Shown in pieces: positions 8,988 to 15,394 of a stretch of DNA of 64,000 nucleotides (positions within the stretch are counted from its first letter, which is position 1; the number at the start of each line of letters is the position of its first letter). This DNA comes from Aliivibrio fischeri ATCC 7744 = JCM 18803 = DSM 507 (GTDB lineage Bacteria; Pseudomonadota; Gammaproteobacteria; Enterobacterales; Vibrionaceae), in assembly GCF_023983475.1 (NCBI RefSeq), contig NZ_CP092712.1:1054001-1118000 (forward strand). The letters run 5' to 3'. The position numbers and the translations under genes were made by a program. The notes under the pieces were generated by a model. It ran no database searches and was not told the DNA's origin. It worked only from the letters and a program-made list of their open reading frames with translations.

Positions 8988-9075
8988 GGTGAGTTGTCCG
9001 AGTGGCTGAAGGAGCACGCCTGGAAAGTGTGTGTACGGCAACGTACCGAGAGTTCGAATCTCTCACTCACCGCCA
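8988..9075 (+). tRNA. tRNA-Ser (anticodon GGA)
   Basis: An 88-base type II tRNA. The acceptor stem GGTGAGT pairs with ACTCACC, followed by discriminator G and encoded CCA at 9073-9075. The anticodon loop CTGGAAA gives GGA, reading UCC/UCU serine codons. The long variable arm and the T-loop GTTCGAATC are visible. It is the probable insertion site of the AT-rich island that starts just downstream. Confidence 0.96.
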
Positions 9076-9081
9076 CATTCT

Positions 9082-9110
9082 AAGCCCTAGCAGAAATGCT
9101 GGGGCTTTTT
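9082..9110 (+). terminator. Terminator after tRNA-Ser
   Basis: An 11-bp stem (AAGCCCTAGCA with one wobble), tetraloop GAAA, then TTTTT. Confidence 0.88.
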
Positions 9111-9591
9111 CGTATCTATAGCTTGTTCAGTGCCCACTGAGAGTACACAAAAGAGTACATAAGCATGCAACTAGATACTTCTCGCGAAGCTAATTACCTT
9201 ATTAAGTCTAATACTGGCATTTATACATTTGAATGGAATGTAAGAGCTGATATTAAATAATAGGTGAGAGAGCTGGTGGCACTCATTAACCAACAATTTT
9301 ATTAAAAGCTTAACTTAATAGTACGCTTGTAATCCGCTGTTTTTATGATCATCGTTTTAAGGTGTTCATTTATGTTTACGACAGCATGTGGCGTCAATCT
9401 TGAGTCGAGTTTATGAATATTATAAATTGAACTAAAGTGTAGAATTTTGAGAGTTATAAGCAGTTTGCAAACAATAGGTCTATGAACTTAGAAAATTTAG
9501 TTATAGCATGATGTGAGTAGAAATATATAATACTTTCTACGTGATTAAAATGTCAATTAATCATTAATTTATCAGTAATGGTTGGGAAAAT
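9111..9591. other. Tract between tRNA-Ser and the defence-like operon
   Basis: This 481-base non-coding tract begins with a short sequence bearing the inverted-repeat-like element GTACACAAAAGAGTAC (about 9143-9158), which lies just upstream of the integrase remnant. The remainder, 9261-9591, is AT-rich, holds no intact gene and must carry the promoter of the 9592-15114 operon. No copy of the tRNA 3' end was seen here or after the operon. Confidence 0.6.
9165..9260 (+). pseudogene. Integrase N-terminal remnant
   Basis: An ATG-started frame of 31 codons (MQLDTSREANYLIKSNTG..., then YTFEWNVRADIK) ends in TAA followed at once by TAG. The segment resembles the extreme N-terminus of tyrosine recombinases that integrate next to tRNA genes in Vibrionaceae, which commonly have a (T/S)GxYxFRW motif here. 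No catalytic domain remains. A short in-frame stretch after the two stops (VRELVALINQQFY, 9264-9302) might be another scrap of the same gene. The family assignment is from recall of similar proteins and is moderately certain. Confidence 0.5.
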
Positions 9592-12228
9592 ATGAATGTG
9601 AAGGAAAAAATTAGTTTTAATGTGTCTGCGCGCACTGCAAGATTAATTGGGCGAGAGAATGTCGCTACGTCTGAAGGTGCGATTATCGAATTGGTTAAAA
9701 ATACTTATGATGCAGACTCCGATATATGTGTAGTTTTTTTCGATATTCCATATCCTAGCGCCCCAAATAAATTGTCTAATAGTGAATTTTATAATCTTTT
9801 ACCATACGCTAGAGAGTCTGGCATTTCTCTTGAGTCTGCGTACTCACTTTTGGACGAGTTGTGGGTAAAGAACAAATTTGAAGCTCCAGAAGGTGTTAAC
9901 GGTAAGGATTTAAGTGATATTAGAAGGGAGTTTGTTAGAAGTAACAGTAAGCTAGAGTATTTTTTCGCGTCTTTTTCATGCGTCTATATAATAGATAATG
10001 GAGAAGGGATGAGTGCTGATATAATTAAAAAACAGTGGATGACAATTGGAACTGACAATAAAGCGTTAGAGTTCGAGTCTACTAATGGCCGAATAAAATC
10101 CGGTGCGAAAGGCATAGGGCGATTTGCATTAGATAAGTTAGGACGTTTAGGCGAAATGCGAACTATAACATCTGAATATAATGAAAGTACTATTTGGCAT
10201 GTTGATTGGGATAGTTTTGAGCAACAAGGTAAAAATATAGATGAAATCTATGCGACCATAGAGTCAATACAATTCAATCATAGTGATTACCTTAAAGAAG
10301 TTTTACCTAGTGCTGCAATTGAAGATTTCGATAAATCAATTGTTGATTTCAAATATTCCTCTTTATTGGCATGTATGGAGAGTGGAACTATTATCAAAAT
10401 ATCTTCAGTGAGGGATGTTTGGAATGAAAGAACACTTAGATCATTGAGAACTGGATTAGAAAGTTTAGTTCCTCCGGTGGAAGACTCTAGCTTTCAATTG
10501 TTTATGTATAACAATTGTTATGAAGAGTTCAATGGAAAAATTTTACCAGAAGTTTGTGAAGATTTTGATTATAAAATTAATGTTACTGCTGATAGTGATT
10601 TAAATTTAAATATTACTGTGTACAGGAATGAGTTTGATGTTGAGAAGATTCCAGATAATGTTTTTAAAAGAGATTTCTTCCAAGATGAAAGGTTTAATAA
10701 GGAATCTTTTAAAAAAGGAGGGTACACTTTAAACGTCCCTTTAGGTCAGTTACTTCCTGGTATTAGTGAATCTGAAACATATGATATTGACGAGATCGGT
10801 TCTTTTTCTTTTAGCCTTTACTTTATGAAACAGGCATCGAATCAAAGAGATATTGAAGCTTATTTCTTAAAAACGATCAATAGTGAAAATCGCAAACATT
10901 GGTTAAAGATTAATAGTGGTGTAAAAGTTTTCCGTGATAATTTTAGAGTTCGCCCATACGGAGAACAAGATAGTGCATCGTGGGATTGGCTTGGTTTGGG
11001 GAATCGTGTGGCATTAAGCCCAGCAGCAGTAAGTAGAAAAGGTTATTGGAAAGTTTCCCCTCAAAACATTGCAGGTGTAATTAATATATCTAGAGTACAT
11101 AATCCTCACTTTCAGGATAAATCAAGTCGAGAAGGATTGCAAGAGTCTGACGCATTACTTAAGTTTCAAGAGATTATTAAGAGATTAATTAAAATTTTTG
11201 AAGATGATCGTAGTTCAGTATATAGCGAATTTAGGAAATATCGTGATGATAATACTGTAGTTCCAGCAAAAGAAGATGTTTCAAATCAAGAGAGGCGAAA
11301 AGCGGATTTAATTGCAGATAAAATGTTTAAAGAATATAAACATAAAAAATTTAGTAATGGTGGAAGAAAACAAACTAAGTCTGATGATGAAACTTTAGCG
11401 ATTGCTTATTTAAGTGAAAAAAATGAGAAGCAGAATCTTGAAAGAGAATTAGATGATGTACAAAAAGAGAATTTTCTGCTGAGAATTTTTGCGTCTAGTG
11501 GCGTTACCATAGCTTCGTTTACACATGAATTAGATAATTTACAAACTAAGTTAGGTGACAGGTTTGGAGAGATAAAAGAGACATTACTTAATTATGTTAA
11601 AGAAGAAGATTTTAAAGAGGTTATTAAATACGAAAATCCATTTTACAAGATTGATTTATTTGAAAAAGAAGACAGAAAACTTAAGCGTTGGTTACAATAT
11701 ACACTGAGAACAATCAGAAAAGATAAAAGGAATAGAAAGCAAATTAATATTTCTGATTATTTTTTGACATTTGAAACTGATTGGATTGATACTTTAGCAG
11801 AGAGAAAAGCATCAATTGAACTTATTGATAATGCGAAAGGGTATCAGTTAAGAGCTTTTGAAATTGATTTAGATTGTATTTTCAATAATTTAATTATTAA
11901 TTCTCTTGATGCATTCATGGCAGCTAAGAGTAGATGTGAAAGAAAGATAAAGATTCAGCTTGATAGCAATTCATCTGGTTTATTTATAATCTATTCCGAT
12001 CTTGGCCCTGGTCTTAGTAAAGATATCGCTGAGCCTAAAGATATATTTAAACCTACATATACAACTAAAAGAGACAAAAATGGTAAGGAAGTTGGTACAG
12101 GGATGGGTATGTGGCTGTTATCTAAGACACTAGAGGAGTATGGAGCTAAAGCAATATTAAATAAACCAGATGTTGGTTTTGAGTTACAATTGATTTTTCC
12201 ACATAAATATCAAAATAAAAGGAAATAA
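9592..12228 (+). CDS. Dual GHKL-ATPase protein with histidine-kinase-like C-terminus
   Basis: An 878-residue cytosolic protein with no membrane helix and two separate Bergerat-fold ATPase domains. The N-terminal one is Hsp90/MORC-like: N box ELVKNTYDAD (N37, D40), G1 box DNGEG (135-139), G2 box GAKGIGR (171-177). The C-terminal one is sensor-kinase-like: N box NNLIINSLDA (765-774), DLGPG (803-807), IFKPTYTTK and GTGMGMW (835-841). Between them is a charged helical region with a candidate phosphoacceptor in SFTHELDN (H645). It is followed after 3 bases by a receiver-domain gene and then by HNH and methyltransferase genes. Inferred role: sensor and kinase of a regulated restriction-like defence system. 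Codons are strongly A/T-ended, with many AGA arginines. Confidence 0.8.
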   Translation: MNVKEKISFNVSARTARLIGRENVATSEGAIIELVKNTYDADSDICVVFFDIPYPSAPNKLSNSEFYNLLPYARESGISLESAYSLLDELWVKNKFEAPEGVNGKDLSDIRREFVRSNSKLEYFFASFSCVYIIDNGEGMSADIIKKQWMTIGTDNKALEFESTNGRIKSGAKGIGRFALDKLGRLGEMRTITSEYNESTIWHVDWDSFEQQGKNIDEIYATIESIQFNHSDYLKEVLPSAAIEDFDKSIVDFKYSSLLACMESGTIIKISSVRDVWNERTLRSLRTGLESLVPPVEDSSFQLFMYNNCYEEFNGKILPEVCEDFDYKINVTADSDLNLNITVYRNEFDVEKIPDNVFKRDFFQDERFNKESFKKGGYTLNVPLGQLLPGISESETYDIDEIGSFSFSLYFMKQASNQRDIEAYFLKTINSENRKHWLKINSGVKVFRDNFRVRPYGEQDSASWDWLGLGNRVALSPAAVSRKGYWKVSPQNIAGVINISRVHNPHFQDKSSREGLQESDALLKFQEIIKRLIKIFEDDRSSVYSEFRKYRDDNTVVPAKEDVSNQERRKADLIADKMFKEYKHKKFSNGGRKQTKSDDETLAIAYLSEKNEKQNLERELDDVQKENFLLRIFASSGVTIASFTHELDNLQTKLGDRFGEIKETLLNYVKEEDFKEVIKYENPFYKIDLFEKEDRKLKRWLQYTLRTIRKDKRNRKQINISDYFLTFETDWIDTLAERKASIELIDNAKGYQLRAFEIDLDCIFNNLIINSLDAFMAAKSRCERKIKIQLDSNSSGLFIIYSDLGPGLSKDIAEPKDIFKPTYTTKRDKNGKEVGTGMGMWLLSKTLEEYGAKAILNKPDVGFELQLIFPHKYQNKRK

Positions 12229-12231
12229 TAA

Positions 12232-12888
12232 ATGAAAATGATTTATAGGTTAGGTTATTTAGATGAGGATGATTCAGATATTAGTTTTTTCTATAACCGT
12301 TTTATAAAGACGTATAGTGAATACTATAGCATGGTGGAGTTTAAGCCGAAATCAGATATTAATGAACTTATAGATGAAATAATGAATGAGGGATTAGATG
12401 CAATTATTGTTGATTTTAGATTAAATGAATATGATCCTATAGGATATAGAGGCCATGATGTTGTTAATATGGTTAGAGAGCAAAAGAAGGACTTTCCTTG
12501 TGTAATTCTTACCTCTAATCCAGAAGATGCTATTGATAATTCTTTTGATACGTACATTGTTTTTAGAAAAGAAACTGCATTTGGTGATGTTTCTGATGAA
12601 AAATCTTTATTTGAAAATAAACTAAGAAAAAGCATAGAACATTACAGAGAAATGATATTGGATGCAGAAAATGAATTTTTAGAATTATCAAAGGTGACGG
12701 AATTAAGTTTGGAACAAGAACAAAGATTAATAGAATTAGATGATATAATAGAATCTAATTTGAGTTATAAGAATAAGGTTCCAAGTTATTTGAAGGAGAG
12801 CTCCCATGTTAAAAATATAGAGTTACTTGTTAATAATACTAAAACTATAATAGAAAAATTAAATGAAATAAAAGATAGATCGGAATAA
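12232..12888 (+). CDS. Stand-alone response-regulator receiver protein
   Basis: A 218-residue protein. Residues ~1-125 form a CheY-like receiver with an acidic pocket (LDEDD, D11-D14), phosphoacceptor D61 in IIVDFRL, switch Thr in LTSN (T94) and conserved Lys in FRKE (K113). The remaining ~90 residues are helical and charged, with no recognisable DNA-binding or enzymatic output domain. It starts 3 bases after the dual GHKL protein, so the two probably form a kinase-receiver pair. The output is likely protein-protein contact, perhaps with the HNH or methyltransferase product; that is inference. Confidence 0.8.
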   Translation: MKMIYRLGYLDEDDSDISFFYNRFIKTYSEYYSMVEFKPKSDINELIDEIMNEGLDAIIVDFRLNEYDPIGYRGHDVVNMVREQKKDFPCVILTSNPEDAIDNSFDTYIVFRKETAFGDVSDEKSLFENKLRKSIEHYREMILDAENEFLELSKVTELSLEQEQRLIELDDIIESNLSYKNKVPSYLKESSHVKNIELLVNNTKTIIEKLNEIKDRSE

Positions 12889-12896
12889 TTTTTACC

Positions 12897-13496
12897 ATGT
12901 TTAAAGTTAGATGTATAAACCCAAAGAGAAGTTGTACAGAGACAAAAAATAGTTACCGATTATATAAGCCTTATTTGAAAATAGACTTTAATAGTTGTTG
13001 TGGCTATTGTGGTATTCATCATGTTTACTTTGGTTCCGGTAACGCTTTTCATATTGACCATTTCGCTCCAAAGAGTTTGTTTAGAGAGTTGGAGAATGAT
13101 TATTCTAATTTGGTTTATTCATGCCCCATATGTAATATAGCAAAAAGTAATCACTGGGTTGGAAATGCACCGACCGAAAATATAGTTGGTAATAAAGGTT
13201 TCTATGATCCATGTGATATTAGATATGATAATGCATTTTATCGTGATTATAGAGGGAAAATAAAATATCGAGAGGAATATTCTGCTGCTGAATATATGTA
13301 TAAGAAAATGAAATTTGGCTTAAAAAGGCATGAGCTATTTTGGTTGGCAGATTATTTTCAAAATATAGTCTCTGAACTTTCACAGCAATTAGATGATTTA
13401 GGCGATAAGCACCCATTATTTTCTGACATTGATGAATTATTAAATCAATCAATACGGCAAATGTCAAAATACCATAAGCTAACTAGAGAGTTGTGA
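12897..13496 (+). CDS. HNH endonuclease
   Basis: A 199-residue protein with a zinc-supported HNH nuclease core: CGYCG (first Cys pair, near residue 37), HIDHFAPKS (catalytic His region, near residue 53) and NLVYSCPICNIAKSNH (second Cys pair and the Asn/His region, near residues 72-87). HNH enzymes nick or cut DNA with one divalent metal ion. It lies between the receiver gene (8-base gap) and a DNA methyltransferase gene (7-base gap), so it is the natural candidate for the cleaving component. It is shorter than most restriction enzymes and has no obvious separate target-recognition domain. Confidence 0.82.
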   Translation: MFKVRCINPKRSCTETKNSYRLYKPYLKIDFNSCCGYCGIHHVYFGSGNAFHIDHFAPKSLFRELENDYSNLVYSCPICNIAKSNHWVGNAPTENIVGNKGFYDPCDIRYDNAFYRDYRGKIKYREEYSAAEYMYKKMKFGLKRHELFWLADYFQNIVSELSQQLDDLGDKHPLFSDIDELLNQSIRQMSKYHKLTREL

Positions 13497-13503
13497 ATTA
13501 GCA

Positions 13504-15114
13504 ATGAGTAAGAATTTAGGTGTTTTCTATACTCCCCATGAGTTAGTTGAGTTTGTAAAGCTTCAACTTGAAAAAACGATAGACTTTAGTAAAGTTAATA
13601 GCATTCTAGAACCTAGCGCAGGTGATGGGAGATTTATTGAATCAATCTTAAAAATGATACCGGAAGATAAACTTAATATTAAGCTTATTGAAATTGACAC
13701 AGAGTCATGTAGGAAACTTAGGGAAAAATTTGTCCCTAAGTATAAAAATATTGTTGTTAATAATGATGATTTTCTTTTTTCTAAATTAGAAAAAAGAAAG
13801 TATGATTTGATTATTGGTAATCCTCCTTACATATCAAAGAGTAGATTGGAAAGGGAACAGATAACTCAACTTAGAAATATACTAACTGAGTTTGATATAC
13901 CACATTCTGCGGATAAAAATATTTGGACTTCTTTTATATTAAAATGTGAAAGAGCATTGTCTATCGATGGGGTTATGACGTTTGTCCTTCCTTTTGATCT
14001 TCTTCAAGTGAAGTTTTCTGAGAGTATACAAAACTTTTTGGAACGAAATTTTGAGCGTATCGATATCTATACATTTCAAAGCTTAGTGTTTAGAGCTGCC
14101 GGTCAAGATACAGTATTACTTGTTGCACATAAAAGACATAAAAGTCCTGGCTTGTATATATATGATGTGGATTCAATTACCAAAGAAAAAAGAAGTAATG
14201 AACCTTTACTTTTGACAAGGCAGGCTTGTCGTAAGAGCACCGCCAAAAGTAATGGAGTAAAATGGAGTTCCTTAGTATTATCAGATTGCGATATAGAATT
14301 TTTGAATAGCCTCTACACTAAGTTAAGTTTAGTGGACAATTATTTAATATCTCGACCTGGCTTGGTAACTGCCGCTAATGACTTTTTTATTATAGATTCT
14401 GAACGTCTACAAGAGTTCGGGCTTCAATCATTTTCAAAACCTGTTGTTCAGAAAGGTCTTTACGTTAAGAATAAGCTCGTTTTTAGTAAGCGAGACTATG
14501 ATGAGCTAATAGATACTGGGTTACCCGGTTTTTTTCTTGATTTTAATAACTATACTCAAGGAACATCGAGCCAAGTCGATGAGTATTTGGCTTTTGGAGA
14601 ACAGTTAGGTATACATAATAGATTTAAGTGTAGAAATAGAGAGTTTTGGTATAAAGTACCAATGGTTCCTCCTGGTGATGGTTTTTTCTTTAAAAGAAGT
14701 AGTGAATATCCTAAATTATTAAAAAATGAGAGTAAAGTTTATTCAACTGATTCCGCTTATAATATTTTTGTTAAACTTGGTTATGATATTAATTCGGTTA
14801 TTTATTCGTATTACAATCCTTTGACTATGTGTTTTGCTGAACTATTTGGCAGATATTATGGAGGAGGGGTTTTAGAGTTAATACCGAGTGAATTTAAAAG
14901 ATTACCTCTACCCTATACTAGTATTTCTCTACAAGAGTTTGAGTCTTTTAAAAAAGATTTTGATGAAAAGTCTTCGATTGTCGATATTTTGGATAAATAT
15001 GGACGATTTATTTTAAAGGATGCATTATGTATATCAGATAGTGACATTGATAGAATATTGATTATATATAGGTCTTTAGTTAATCGAAGGCTTAATAAAT
15101 CTATCACTAGATAG
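13504..15114 (+). CDS. N6-adenine DNA methyltransferase (Eco57I/TaqI-like)
   Basis: A 536-residue gamma-type amino-methyltransferase. Motif X-like GVFYTPHELV lies at residues ~6-15, motif I EPSAGDGRF (AdoMet binding) near 37-45, and motif IV GNPPY at 105-109 (catalytic N106-P-P-Y109). The C-terminal half (about 250-530) resembles the target-recognition regions of Type IIG/Eco57I-like enzymes, with RYYGGGVLELIPSEFKRLPLP near its end. No PD-(D/E)XK nuclease motif is evident, so it is probably the modification subunit, with cleavage supplied by the HNH gene just upstream. It is the last gene of the four-gene operon, and a terminator follows at 15178. Confidence 0.88.
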   Translation: MSKNLGVFYTPHELVEFVKLQLEKTIDFSKVNSILEPSAGDGRFIESILKMIPEDKLNIKLIEIDTESCRKLREKFVPKYKNIVVNNDDFLFSKLEKRKYDLIIGNPPYISKSRLEREQITQLRNILTEFDIPHSADKNIWTSFILKCERALSIDGVMTFVLPFDLLQVKFSESIQNFLERNFERIDIYTFQSLVFRAAGQDTVLLVAHKRHKSPGLYIYDVDSITKEKRSNEPLLLTRQACRKSTAKSNGVKWSSLVLSDCDIEFLNSLYTKLSLVDNYLISRPGLVTAANDFFIIDSERLQEFGLQSFSKPVVQKGLYVKNKLVFSKRDYDELIDTGLPGFFLDFNNYTQGTSSQVDEYLAFGEQLGIHNRFKCRNREFWYKVPMVPPGDGFFFKRSSEYPKLLKNESKVYSTDSAYNIFVKLGYDINSVIYSYYNPLTMCFAELFGRYYGGGVLELIPSEFKRLPLPYTSISLQEFESFKKDFDEKSSIVDILDKYGRFILKDALCISDSDIDRILIIYRSLVNRRLNKSITR

Positions 15115-15177
15115 AATAGTTATGTTTGTTTCTGTTAGTTTTAATTTGGTAATATACCAGAAAGCATACTAATATGA

Positions 15178-15209
15178 ATGCCAGTGATACCTTACTGGCA
15201 TAATTTTTT
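15178..15209 (+). terminator. Terminator after the methyltransferase gene
   Basis: An 8-bp perfect stem (ATGCCAGT/ACTGGCAT) with an 8-base loop is followed by AA and six T residues. It probably marks the end of the island operon. The rest of 15115-15394 contains no gene. Confidence 0.75.
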
Positions 15210-15394
15210 AATTTATAATACCTGATTGAAATAGTTAGAAAATATTTAACTCTCGAAAAGGATGTTTACATATTATTCTTATCCATTTTTCTGCAAAATT
15301 ATCTGACTATTTATTTGGGTTGGTATAAATCCTCTCTTGATCTGAAAAGTCACCTCTGACGTATAACATAGAGAACTCAAACATAGAGGTACAT

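Follow-up and report, generated by a model that had tools for sequence, protein, structure and literature searches.

A four-gene cassette of dual-ATPase histidine kinase, receiver, HNH nuclease and DNA methyltransferase in Aliivibrio fischeri: a conserved mobile unit and candidate phosphorelay-gated restriction system

A stretch of 64,000 nucleotides from the Aliivibrio fischeri ATCC 7744 genome (contig NZ_CP092712.1, positions 1,054,001 to 1,118,000; "the window") includes four adjacent open reading frames (ORFs) that encode a histidine kinase with two ATPase domains (HK), a receiver protein (REC), an HNH nuclease (HNH) and an N6-adenine DNA methyltransferase (MTase) (Table 1). We found that this cassette is a conserved mobile unit, and suggest that it may be a restriction-like defence system in which a phosphorelay gates the nuclease. 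An earlier note on this DNA had described four co-directional genes with gaps of 3, 8 and 7 bases beside a tRNA-Ser and an integrase scrap. The ORFs lie in this way on one strand, and both neighbouring features were recovered. The domains that it named were identified by Pfam, as HATPase_c_3 and HATPase_c in HK, Response_reg in REC (below the cut-off, with the fold supported by a model), HNH in the nuclease and M_Eco57I_C/Eco57I in the MTase, and the receiver residue D61, described as intact, is an Asp in all 86 RECs aligned. The note also set the A/T-richness of the cassette against its flanks. The GC content is indeed low from 10 to 15 kb of the window (0.28-0.33 in five 1-kb steps, vs 0.35-0.44 across the greater part of the first 30 kb). 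The region from 25 to 27 kb is low too, however (0.30 and 0.32), so A/T-richness alone is a weak sign. None of the four proteins had an NCBIfam match exceeding the curated cut-off.

Table 1. Features of the cassette and its insertion site (window coordinates)
Feature	Position	Strand	Details
tRNA-Ser (GGA), adjoins insertion site	8988..9075	+	ARAGORN
att-like: tRNA-Ser 3′ end and downstream stretch	9040..9122	+	BLAST vs L153, L155, L156
Inserted block	9123..15266		6.1 kb; absent in G005 and G007
Integrase scrap, 31 codons	9165..9260	+	29/31 residues align with the start of the G006 (L155) integrase ORF
HK	9592..12228	+	878 aa; ORF, Pfam, alignment, AlphaFold2 model
REC	12232..12888	+	218 aa; receiver with D61 and C-terminal helical part
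HNH nuclease, PtuB-like	12897..13496	+	199 aa
N6-adenine DNA methyltransferase, Eco57I/BseCI/TaqI type, NPPY motif	13504..15114	+	536 aa

HK matches HATPase_c_3 (47.9 bits) and HATPase_c (39.9 bits). Its layout comprises an N-terminal MORC/Hsp90-type GHKL ATPase with transducer (residues ~10-548), a coiled coil, a DHp domain with His645 and a C-terminal kinase ATPase (~713-875). In the AlphaFold2 model (predicted local distance difference test score, pLDDT, 86), residues ~629-873 resemble histidine-kinase cores and ~10-548 resemble MORC/Hsp90 ATPase-transducer modules; kinase cores dominate the structural alignment (VIA-align), so the absence of other folds from it carries no meaning. GHKL motifs, an S5-type transducer and a MORC-like fold, the features of paraMORC/MORC-type ATPases, are all present. 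The DHp His is kept in 90/90 aligned HKs, and both ATPase sites retain their motifs except for single departures and gaps, with D803 and G807 each deviating in one HK. As judged from sequence, HK and REC together have the phospho-His, ATP-binding motifs and receiver Asp, Thr and Lys expected of a histidine kinase and response regulator. Residues ~61-120 of HK (window 9772-9951) are the least conserved part of the N-terminal ATPase and are absent from some relatives (e.g., L004); they are a candidate sensing insert.

REC scored 22.8 bits against Response_reg, under the Pfam cut-off of 30.2. The model has a (beta-alpha)5 fold (pLDDT 93) followed by a C-terminal helical part, and Foldseek matched it to receivers, so the assignment is weak by sequence and firm by model. 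No DNA-binding domain was recognised in REC. The nuclease matches Pfam HNH (38.6 bits) and, weakly, PtuB-like and other PADLOC models (best 49 bits), and its closest solved chains are PtuB proteins (E 2e-4 to 6e-3). His55, Asn71 and Asn80 are kept in 86/86 HNHs. Two cysteine columns vary: C38 is Thr in 31/86 and Ser in 2/86, and C79 is Val in 31/86 and Ile in 2/86, while C35, C76 and the catalytic residues are retained. The metal site of these variants is possibly shifted or lost. The MTase matches M_Eco57I_C (109 bits, Pfam) and the generic type II MTase model PDLC03267 of PADLOC (476 bits); the closest solved structures are BseCI and TaqI.

We compared the cassette across 89 loci, comprising 80 genome loci chosen by HK similarity, five viral contigs, three plasmids and the window. 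Three RECs were left out, two of them at contig ends (L014, L045) and one from an apparently broken 70-aa ORF (L049), as was the MTase of L088 (contig end); for L030, with an MTase split over two ORFs, the larger one was used. The MTases of L007, L013, L019, L081 and L090 fell below the threshold of the first profile and were assigned by hand, and a distant relative (L120, G033) was added by hand; among these MTases, that of L081 matches Eco57I at 93 bits and those of L090 and L120 match N6_Mtase at 17.8 and 19.9 bits (cut-off 20.4). HK, REC and HNH occur in this order on one strand in 85 of the 89 loci, and the other four (L014, L045, L052 and L085) reach the end of their contig within HK or REC or shortly beyond. 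The MTase adjoins this trio in 84 of the 85 loci, downstream in 79 and upstream in 5. The median intergenic gaps are 1.5, -4 and -4 bases. The trio was found in Bacteroidota, Pseudomonadota, Bacillota and one methanogen metagenome-assembled genome (L037, which may be misbinned), and plasmids of Ensifer, Bacteroides and Salipiger have HK-REC-HNH-MTase in the identical order. On two viral contigs (L087:1197-14123 and L090:7580-18596) the cassette lies beside genes that, by eye, resemble phage tail or tape-measure genes; phages may themselves carry it.

Because the loci had been picked by HK, we reversed the search to start from HNH. Among 395 genomes of the class of L011 (Flavobacterium), HNH alone gave six matches including L011, and all of the other five carry HK-REC-HNH-MTase, with at most 81% DNA identity to any earlier locus. 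The same search of plasmids returned five records, each with HK-REC upstream; four were already known from the HK search and the fifth is a Deinococcus plasmid with the MTase placed first. In Rhizobium phaseoli (L195), we found an in-frame stop in HK, no match to either MTase profile and an unassigned 425-aa ORF after HNH. As judged by ORF lengths, no REC-HNH fusion was seen in the 89 loci or in the six HNH-search genomes of the L011 class. A search with the MTase gave 56 plasmid records; three of the 30 listed are known cassettes, and the stretches L182 and L183 have an N6-MTase with no kinase annotated. The co-occurrence in other genomes for which the earlier note had proposed a search is established. 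Nearer to the window, HK gave only partial matches in the 13 genomes searched of its genus, and at E<=1e-60 only its own genome among 369 of its class (at most two candidates were scored per genome, hence a weak negative). A distant-mode search for an E. coli carrier with the Enterobacter HK gene gave no match; in the Enterobacter relative (L006) the contig end truncates the MTase.

Within the cassette, two modules can be distinguished. Pairwise identities of HK, REC and HNH correlate with one another at r 0.76-0.87, and with the MTase at 0.41-0.46. When the three HK pairings were permuted, each, including that with the MTase, exceeded 500/500 permutations, which indicates that the MTase is partly co-inherited. 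The clearest exchange separates L026 from L056, whose MTases are 94% identical while HK, REC and HNH share 43, 32 and 51%. The two also share 199 bases ahead of HK at 89% DNA identity, and the DNA identity climbs from ~0.6 to >0.9 at the boundary between HNH and MTase. The pairs L068/L077 and L018/L070 follow a similar pattern with blurrier edges; their shared upstream stretch extends ~130 bases into the HK gene, and the MTase match of L018/L070 begins ~220 bases inside the gene. On the HK tree, the starred branches cannot be reconciled with fewer than 12 gains or losses of type 3 MTase, and the upstream or downstream position of the MTase changes five times. The conserved upstream stretch encodes a small helix-turn-helix (HTH)-like protein in L026 and L054 that is not intact in L056. 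Where the upstream DNA was long enough (85 loci), a profile of this protein matched in 15, and a different small HTH-like ORF was noted by eye in five others. Thus, the trio behaves as one unit and the MTase as a second, exchangeable one, and both are replaced as blocks. Exchange of trios around one MTase suggests that the target specificity does not lie in HNH, although isoschizomers could mimic this pattern.

The insertion site can be defined by comparison with sister genomes. In G005 the left flank aligns up to window position 9122 (98%) and the right flank from 15267 (96%), with one base between, and genome searches revealed a second empty site in G007 with the same joint within two bases. 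As the flanks abut in both, the block is an insertion a short way past the tRNA-Ser. Three other genomes (G002, G006 and G013) have different islands at this site, with an integrase above the Pfam cut-off (66.7 bits to Phage_integrase for the G006 ORF) and a distal duplication of the tRNA 3′ end: 70-79 bases of the att-like stretch recur at the far end of these islands with 93.5-98.6% identity (BLAST). A second copy of this stretch, or a direct repeat flanking the insertion in the window, was not found among the 20 families listed of 28 repeat families. The G002 island (L153:1262-10877), whose left flank is 98% identical, is DISARM-like, with DrmA (636 bits), DrmB (175 bits) and a NERD-helicase-like gene. 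No PADLOC match was obtained for three ORFs from the islands of G006 and G013. A DISARM-like island at the shared site and the mobile setting fit a role in defence.

The reading that we consider best, although it falls somewhat short of being probable, is that of a mobile restriction-like defence cassette built from two exchangeable modules, with its nuclease gated by a phosphorelay. The first module would be the MTase, which marks host DNA, together in some relatives with the small HTH regulator at the front of the cassette. The second would be the trio. The MORC-type half of HK points to DNA, free or in a complex with protein, as the input; the MORC/Hsp90-type ATPase of an HK dimer would clamp such DNA where it lacks the host mark, and the coiled coil would transmit closure of the clamp to the DHp helices, where His645 would become phosphorylated. 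The phosphoryl group would then move from His645 to Asp61 of REC, and phosphorylated REC, via its C-terminal helical part, would activate HNH to cut the invading DNA. Since REC has no recognised DNA-binding domain and always adjoins HNH, HK to REC to HNH is the simplest route. A sharper version, in which the MORC-type clamp-kinase reads the DNA, the receiver fires a nuclease without specificity of its own and the swappable MTase provides the specificity of the complex (phosphorelay-licensed restriction), is possible and held more tentatively.

Several observations weigh against this interpretation. Co-evolution of the trio indicates joint working and is silent on the direction of the signal, and the best structural match of REC, to PorX, is loose (template modelling score 0.46, root-mean-square deviation 8.8 A). 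The genome loci are the best 80, by HK similarity, of 457 HK relatives from a scan of 84,980 species genomes. The HK tree was built quickly and gave long-branch warnings. On this tree MTase type changes 14 times, against a mean of 29.7 in shuffles (as low in 0/200), and the HK-MTase correlation is 0.75 within MTase type 3 (HK-HNH 0.78), though 0.43 within type 2; MTase and trio therefore often travel together. The swaps are no proof of an HNH free of specificity, because one target could be common to MTases of different types. In L058 the trio is present and no MTase was found. Some copies are broken, as L005 (HK annotated without the first ATPase motif, beside IS66), L049 (REC of 70 aa) and L195 (stop in HK) have defects. 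At E<=1e-20, 51 PADLOC models matched within a set of 134 flanking ORFs (82 loci), compared with 9 within 134/140 control ORFs. Yet of the 25 models listed 15 belong to the PDC-S02 family, the distinct names listed number 10 vs 9, and the controls are all gammaproteobacterial. At a post hoc threshold of E<=1e-40 there were seven names vs none, among the models listed.

The strongest competitor, which we regard as unlikely but serious, is an abortive-infection relay similar to Detocs. Here HK would sense an infection cue other than methylation, phosphorylated REC would free HNH on all unprotected DNA, that of the host included, and the MTase would act mainly as host protection or as antidote. 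A kinase, receiver and effector are what such a relay consists of, the HNH is closest to the PtuB effectors of Septu and retron systems, and the MTase is exchangeable. However, retention of the MTase in 84/85 loci is a better match to the marking of self and non-self, and the MORC-type module suggests sensing of DNA or a complex.

Less probable again is an ordinary type II restriction-modification (R-M) system in which HNH is the sequence-specific enzyme and the HK-REC pair does no more than tune how strongly HNH is expressed or how active it is, e.g., while the system becomes established in a new host. The MTase is of the normal type II kind (PDLC03267), its relatives occur in the plasmid stretches L182 and L183 without an annotated kinase, small HTH genes precede some cassettes, and HK and MTase correlate well within type 3 (0.75). 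Against this, a tuning role does not require so tight a linkage of the trio, REC has no recognised DNA-binding domain, an HNH of ~190-200 aa leaves scant space for a target-recognition domain, and trios swap across MTases.

We consider it very unlikely that the cassette is a mere member of the published HEF_HK/Response_reg_2 group. HEF_HK kinases have an N-terminal HATPase_c_3, a C-terminal HATPase_c, an adjacent Response_reg_2 protein and R-M neighbours, and these pairs were speculated to control R-M (Bellieny-Rabelo 2021, PMC8011034). The likeness is considerable: HATPase_c_3 occurs in 57/58 and HATPase_c in 58/58 of the cassette HKs, and both groups share a soluble kinase of the same two-ATPase plan around a DHp, an adjacent receiver, R-M genes including an MTase nearby and a wide, patchy distribution (PMC8011034). 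As described there, HEF_HK neighbourhoods prominently include C5-MTase and Vsr with varied nucleases, HNH_2 among them, whereas the cassette has a DHp and receiver of other Pfam families and a single HNH type that is always the third gene. HEF_HK (PF19191) matched 0/58 HKs and Response_reg_2 (PF19192) 0/78 RECs at E<=0.01, while the same models matched the L118 kinase (30.2 bits) and receiver (51.3 bits) used as controls. Three of 229 genomes of the class (L117, L118 and L119) have HEF_HK. L117 and L118 encode larger kinases (993 and 1003 aa), long neighbours (555 and 617 aa; only that of L118 was run against Response_reg_2) and C5-MTases, and L123 and L124 resemble this set. Against the cassette HK profile, L117, L118, L123 and L124 score 154-194 bits and L119 scores 226. 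In a quick tree the HNH-linked kinases lie on one side of a branch with a Shimodaira-Hasegawa-like approximate likelihood ratio (SH-aLRT) of only 77, and L117, L118, L123 and L124 group together at 100. As the two models miss the HKs and RECs and the tree separates the groups, sequence comparison places the cassette as a sister lineage of the HEF_HK group with a fixed HNH, of a kind already partly published.

Other kinases of the wider family have different partners. L119 passes the HEF_HK model with a shorter kinase and no MTase seen beside it; the region L119:2765-7882 encodes a PAPS-reductase-like protein, then the kinase, then a 637-aa protein without a Pfam match. The first gene is, we presume, of the kind found in DNA phosphorothioation clusters, and L119 is possibly a kinase system tied to another DNA modification. 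In the window's genus, L123:3923-9950 (G004) has by eye an HEF_HK-like set of a C5-MTase-like protein, a 997-aa kinase and a 595-aa receiver-like protein. A shorter kinase with two ATPase domains adjoins a C5-MTase (by annotation in L110, as judged by eye in L121) and a receiver protein of 340-362 aa, the remainder of which has no Pfam match, on a Campylobacter plasmid (L110:6803-11256) and in a gammaproteobacterium (L121:4103-8659). On two rhizobial plasmids (L111:7001-11318 and L112:7001-11376) the kinase is followed by a 645-680-aa protein without a Pfam match and then, on the opposite strand, an FtsK-like gene.

The earlier note had called the system a candidate undescribed one. We did not find the four-gene set named or described in the literature searched (coverage being thin for subscription journals, preprints and figures), nor in the available portions of PMC8011034, PMC2292703, PMC13092281, PMC12137116, PMC12839542, PMC7824862, PMC3710099 and PMC10952713, but its kind is not undescribed: a kinase-receiver pair beside R-M was published in 2021 and paraMORC in 2008. 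PADLOC 2023, one of the profile checks that the note had proposed, had no match to HK or REC of the window at E<=0.1 (presence of Detocs models in that release was not checked), while HNH and MTase matched PtuB-like nuclease and generic MTase models. Across 58 HKs the PADLOC matches were to REase_II, PDC-M43B and Cas3g models. Two models labelled "type II restriction enzyme," PDLC03485 and PDLC03419, match 19/58 and 12/58 HKs; our guess is that the gene neighbourhood may have led to the annotation of such kinases as restriction enzymes. GHKL "paraMORC" ATPases were reported in R-M neighbourhoods, some with HNH (Iyer 2008, PMC2292703). The cassette resembles them in its MORC-like GHKL and S5 domains near an MTase, and paraMORC1 was noted with HNH, but in the text available the word "receiver" does not appear, fusion to a kinase core is not named and many are accompanied by helicases (PMC2292703). 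HATPase and REC are among the abbreviations for unvalidated predicted systems in a 2026 figure legend (DefensePredictor, PMC13092281, Fig. 6F); one of these systems could be the cassette.

Least likely of all is a non-defensive module for maintenance of, or addiction to, mobile elements: carriage on plasmids, viral contigs and a tRNA island and the near-equal PADLOC names around cassettes and controls (10 vs 9, among the models listed) agree with it, but such carriage is equally typical of defence, a DISARM-like island occupies the same site, and addiction and defence can coexist.

Most bacterial two-component systems respond to chemical or physical signals by regulating transcription, and we know of no earlier one with foreign DNA as input and DNA cutting as output. 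If the sharper version of the phosphorelay reading is true, the cassette would be the first, and the conservation of a MORC-type kinase, receiver and nuclease trio across phyla suggests that phosphorelays may also gate restriction. Swaps of MTase and trio blocks provide a natural experiment on the seat of specificity. The role of prokaryotic MORC relatives was deduced in 2008 from the genes around them (PMC2292703), and the cassette would offer them a testable cellular function.

As in type II R-M, the cassette has MTase and nuclease genes together. It shares with Septu and retron-Septu an HNH effector near PtuB in size, with PtuB chains as the closest solved structures. Septu requires PtuA, an ABC-type ATPase, together with PtuB, whereas the HNH partner here is a GHKL kinase and no PtuA model was among the PADLOC matches of the 58 HKs, so membership was rejected; to our knowledge Septu has neither relay nor MTase. 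In Detocs a kinase-receiver relay drives a toxic effector, and the genes and effector, as far as we know, differ from those of the cassette and include no MTase. In PorX, helices in a bundle layout come after the receiver, which is coupled to an enzyme domain, an arrangement that REC may share. The PorX enzyme, however, is a fused PglZ domain (PMC12839542), and the protein regulates a secretion system. VcSduA, a Shedu protein with GHKL, differs from the cassette in being a single protein with a PD-(D/E)XK nuclease, and neither relay nor MTase is described in the portion available; it resembles the cassette in combining a GHKL ATPase with a nuclease, in this case for phage defence that requires both activities (PMC12137116).

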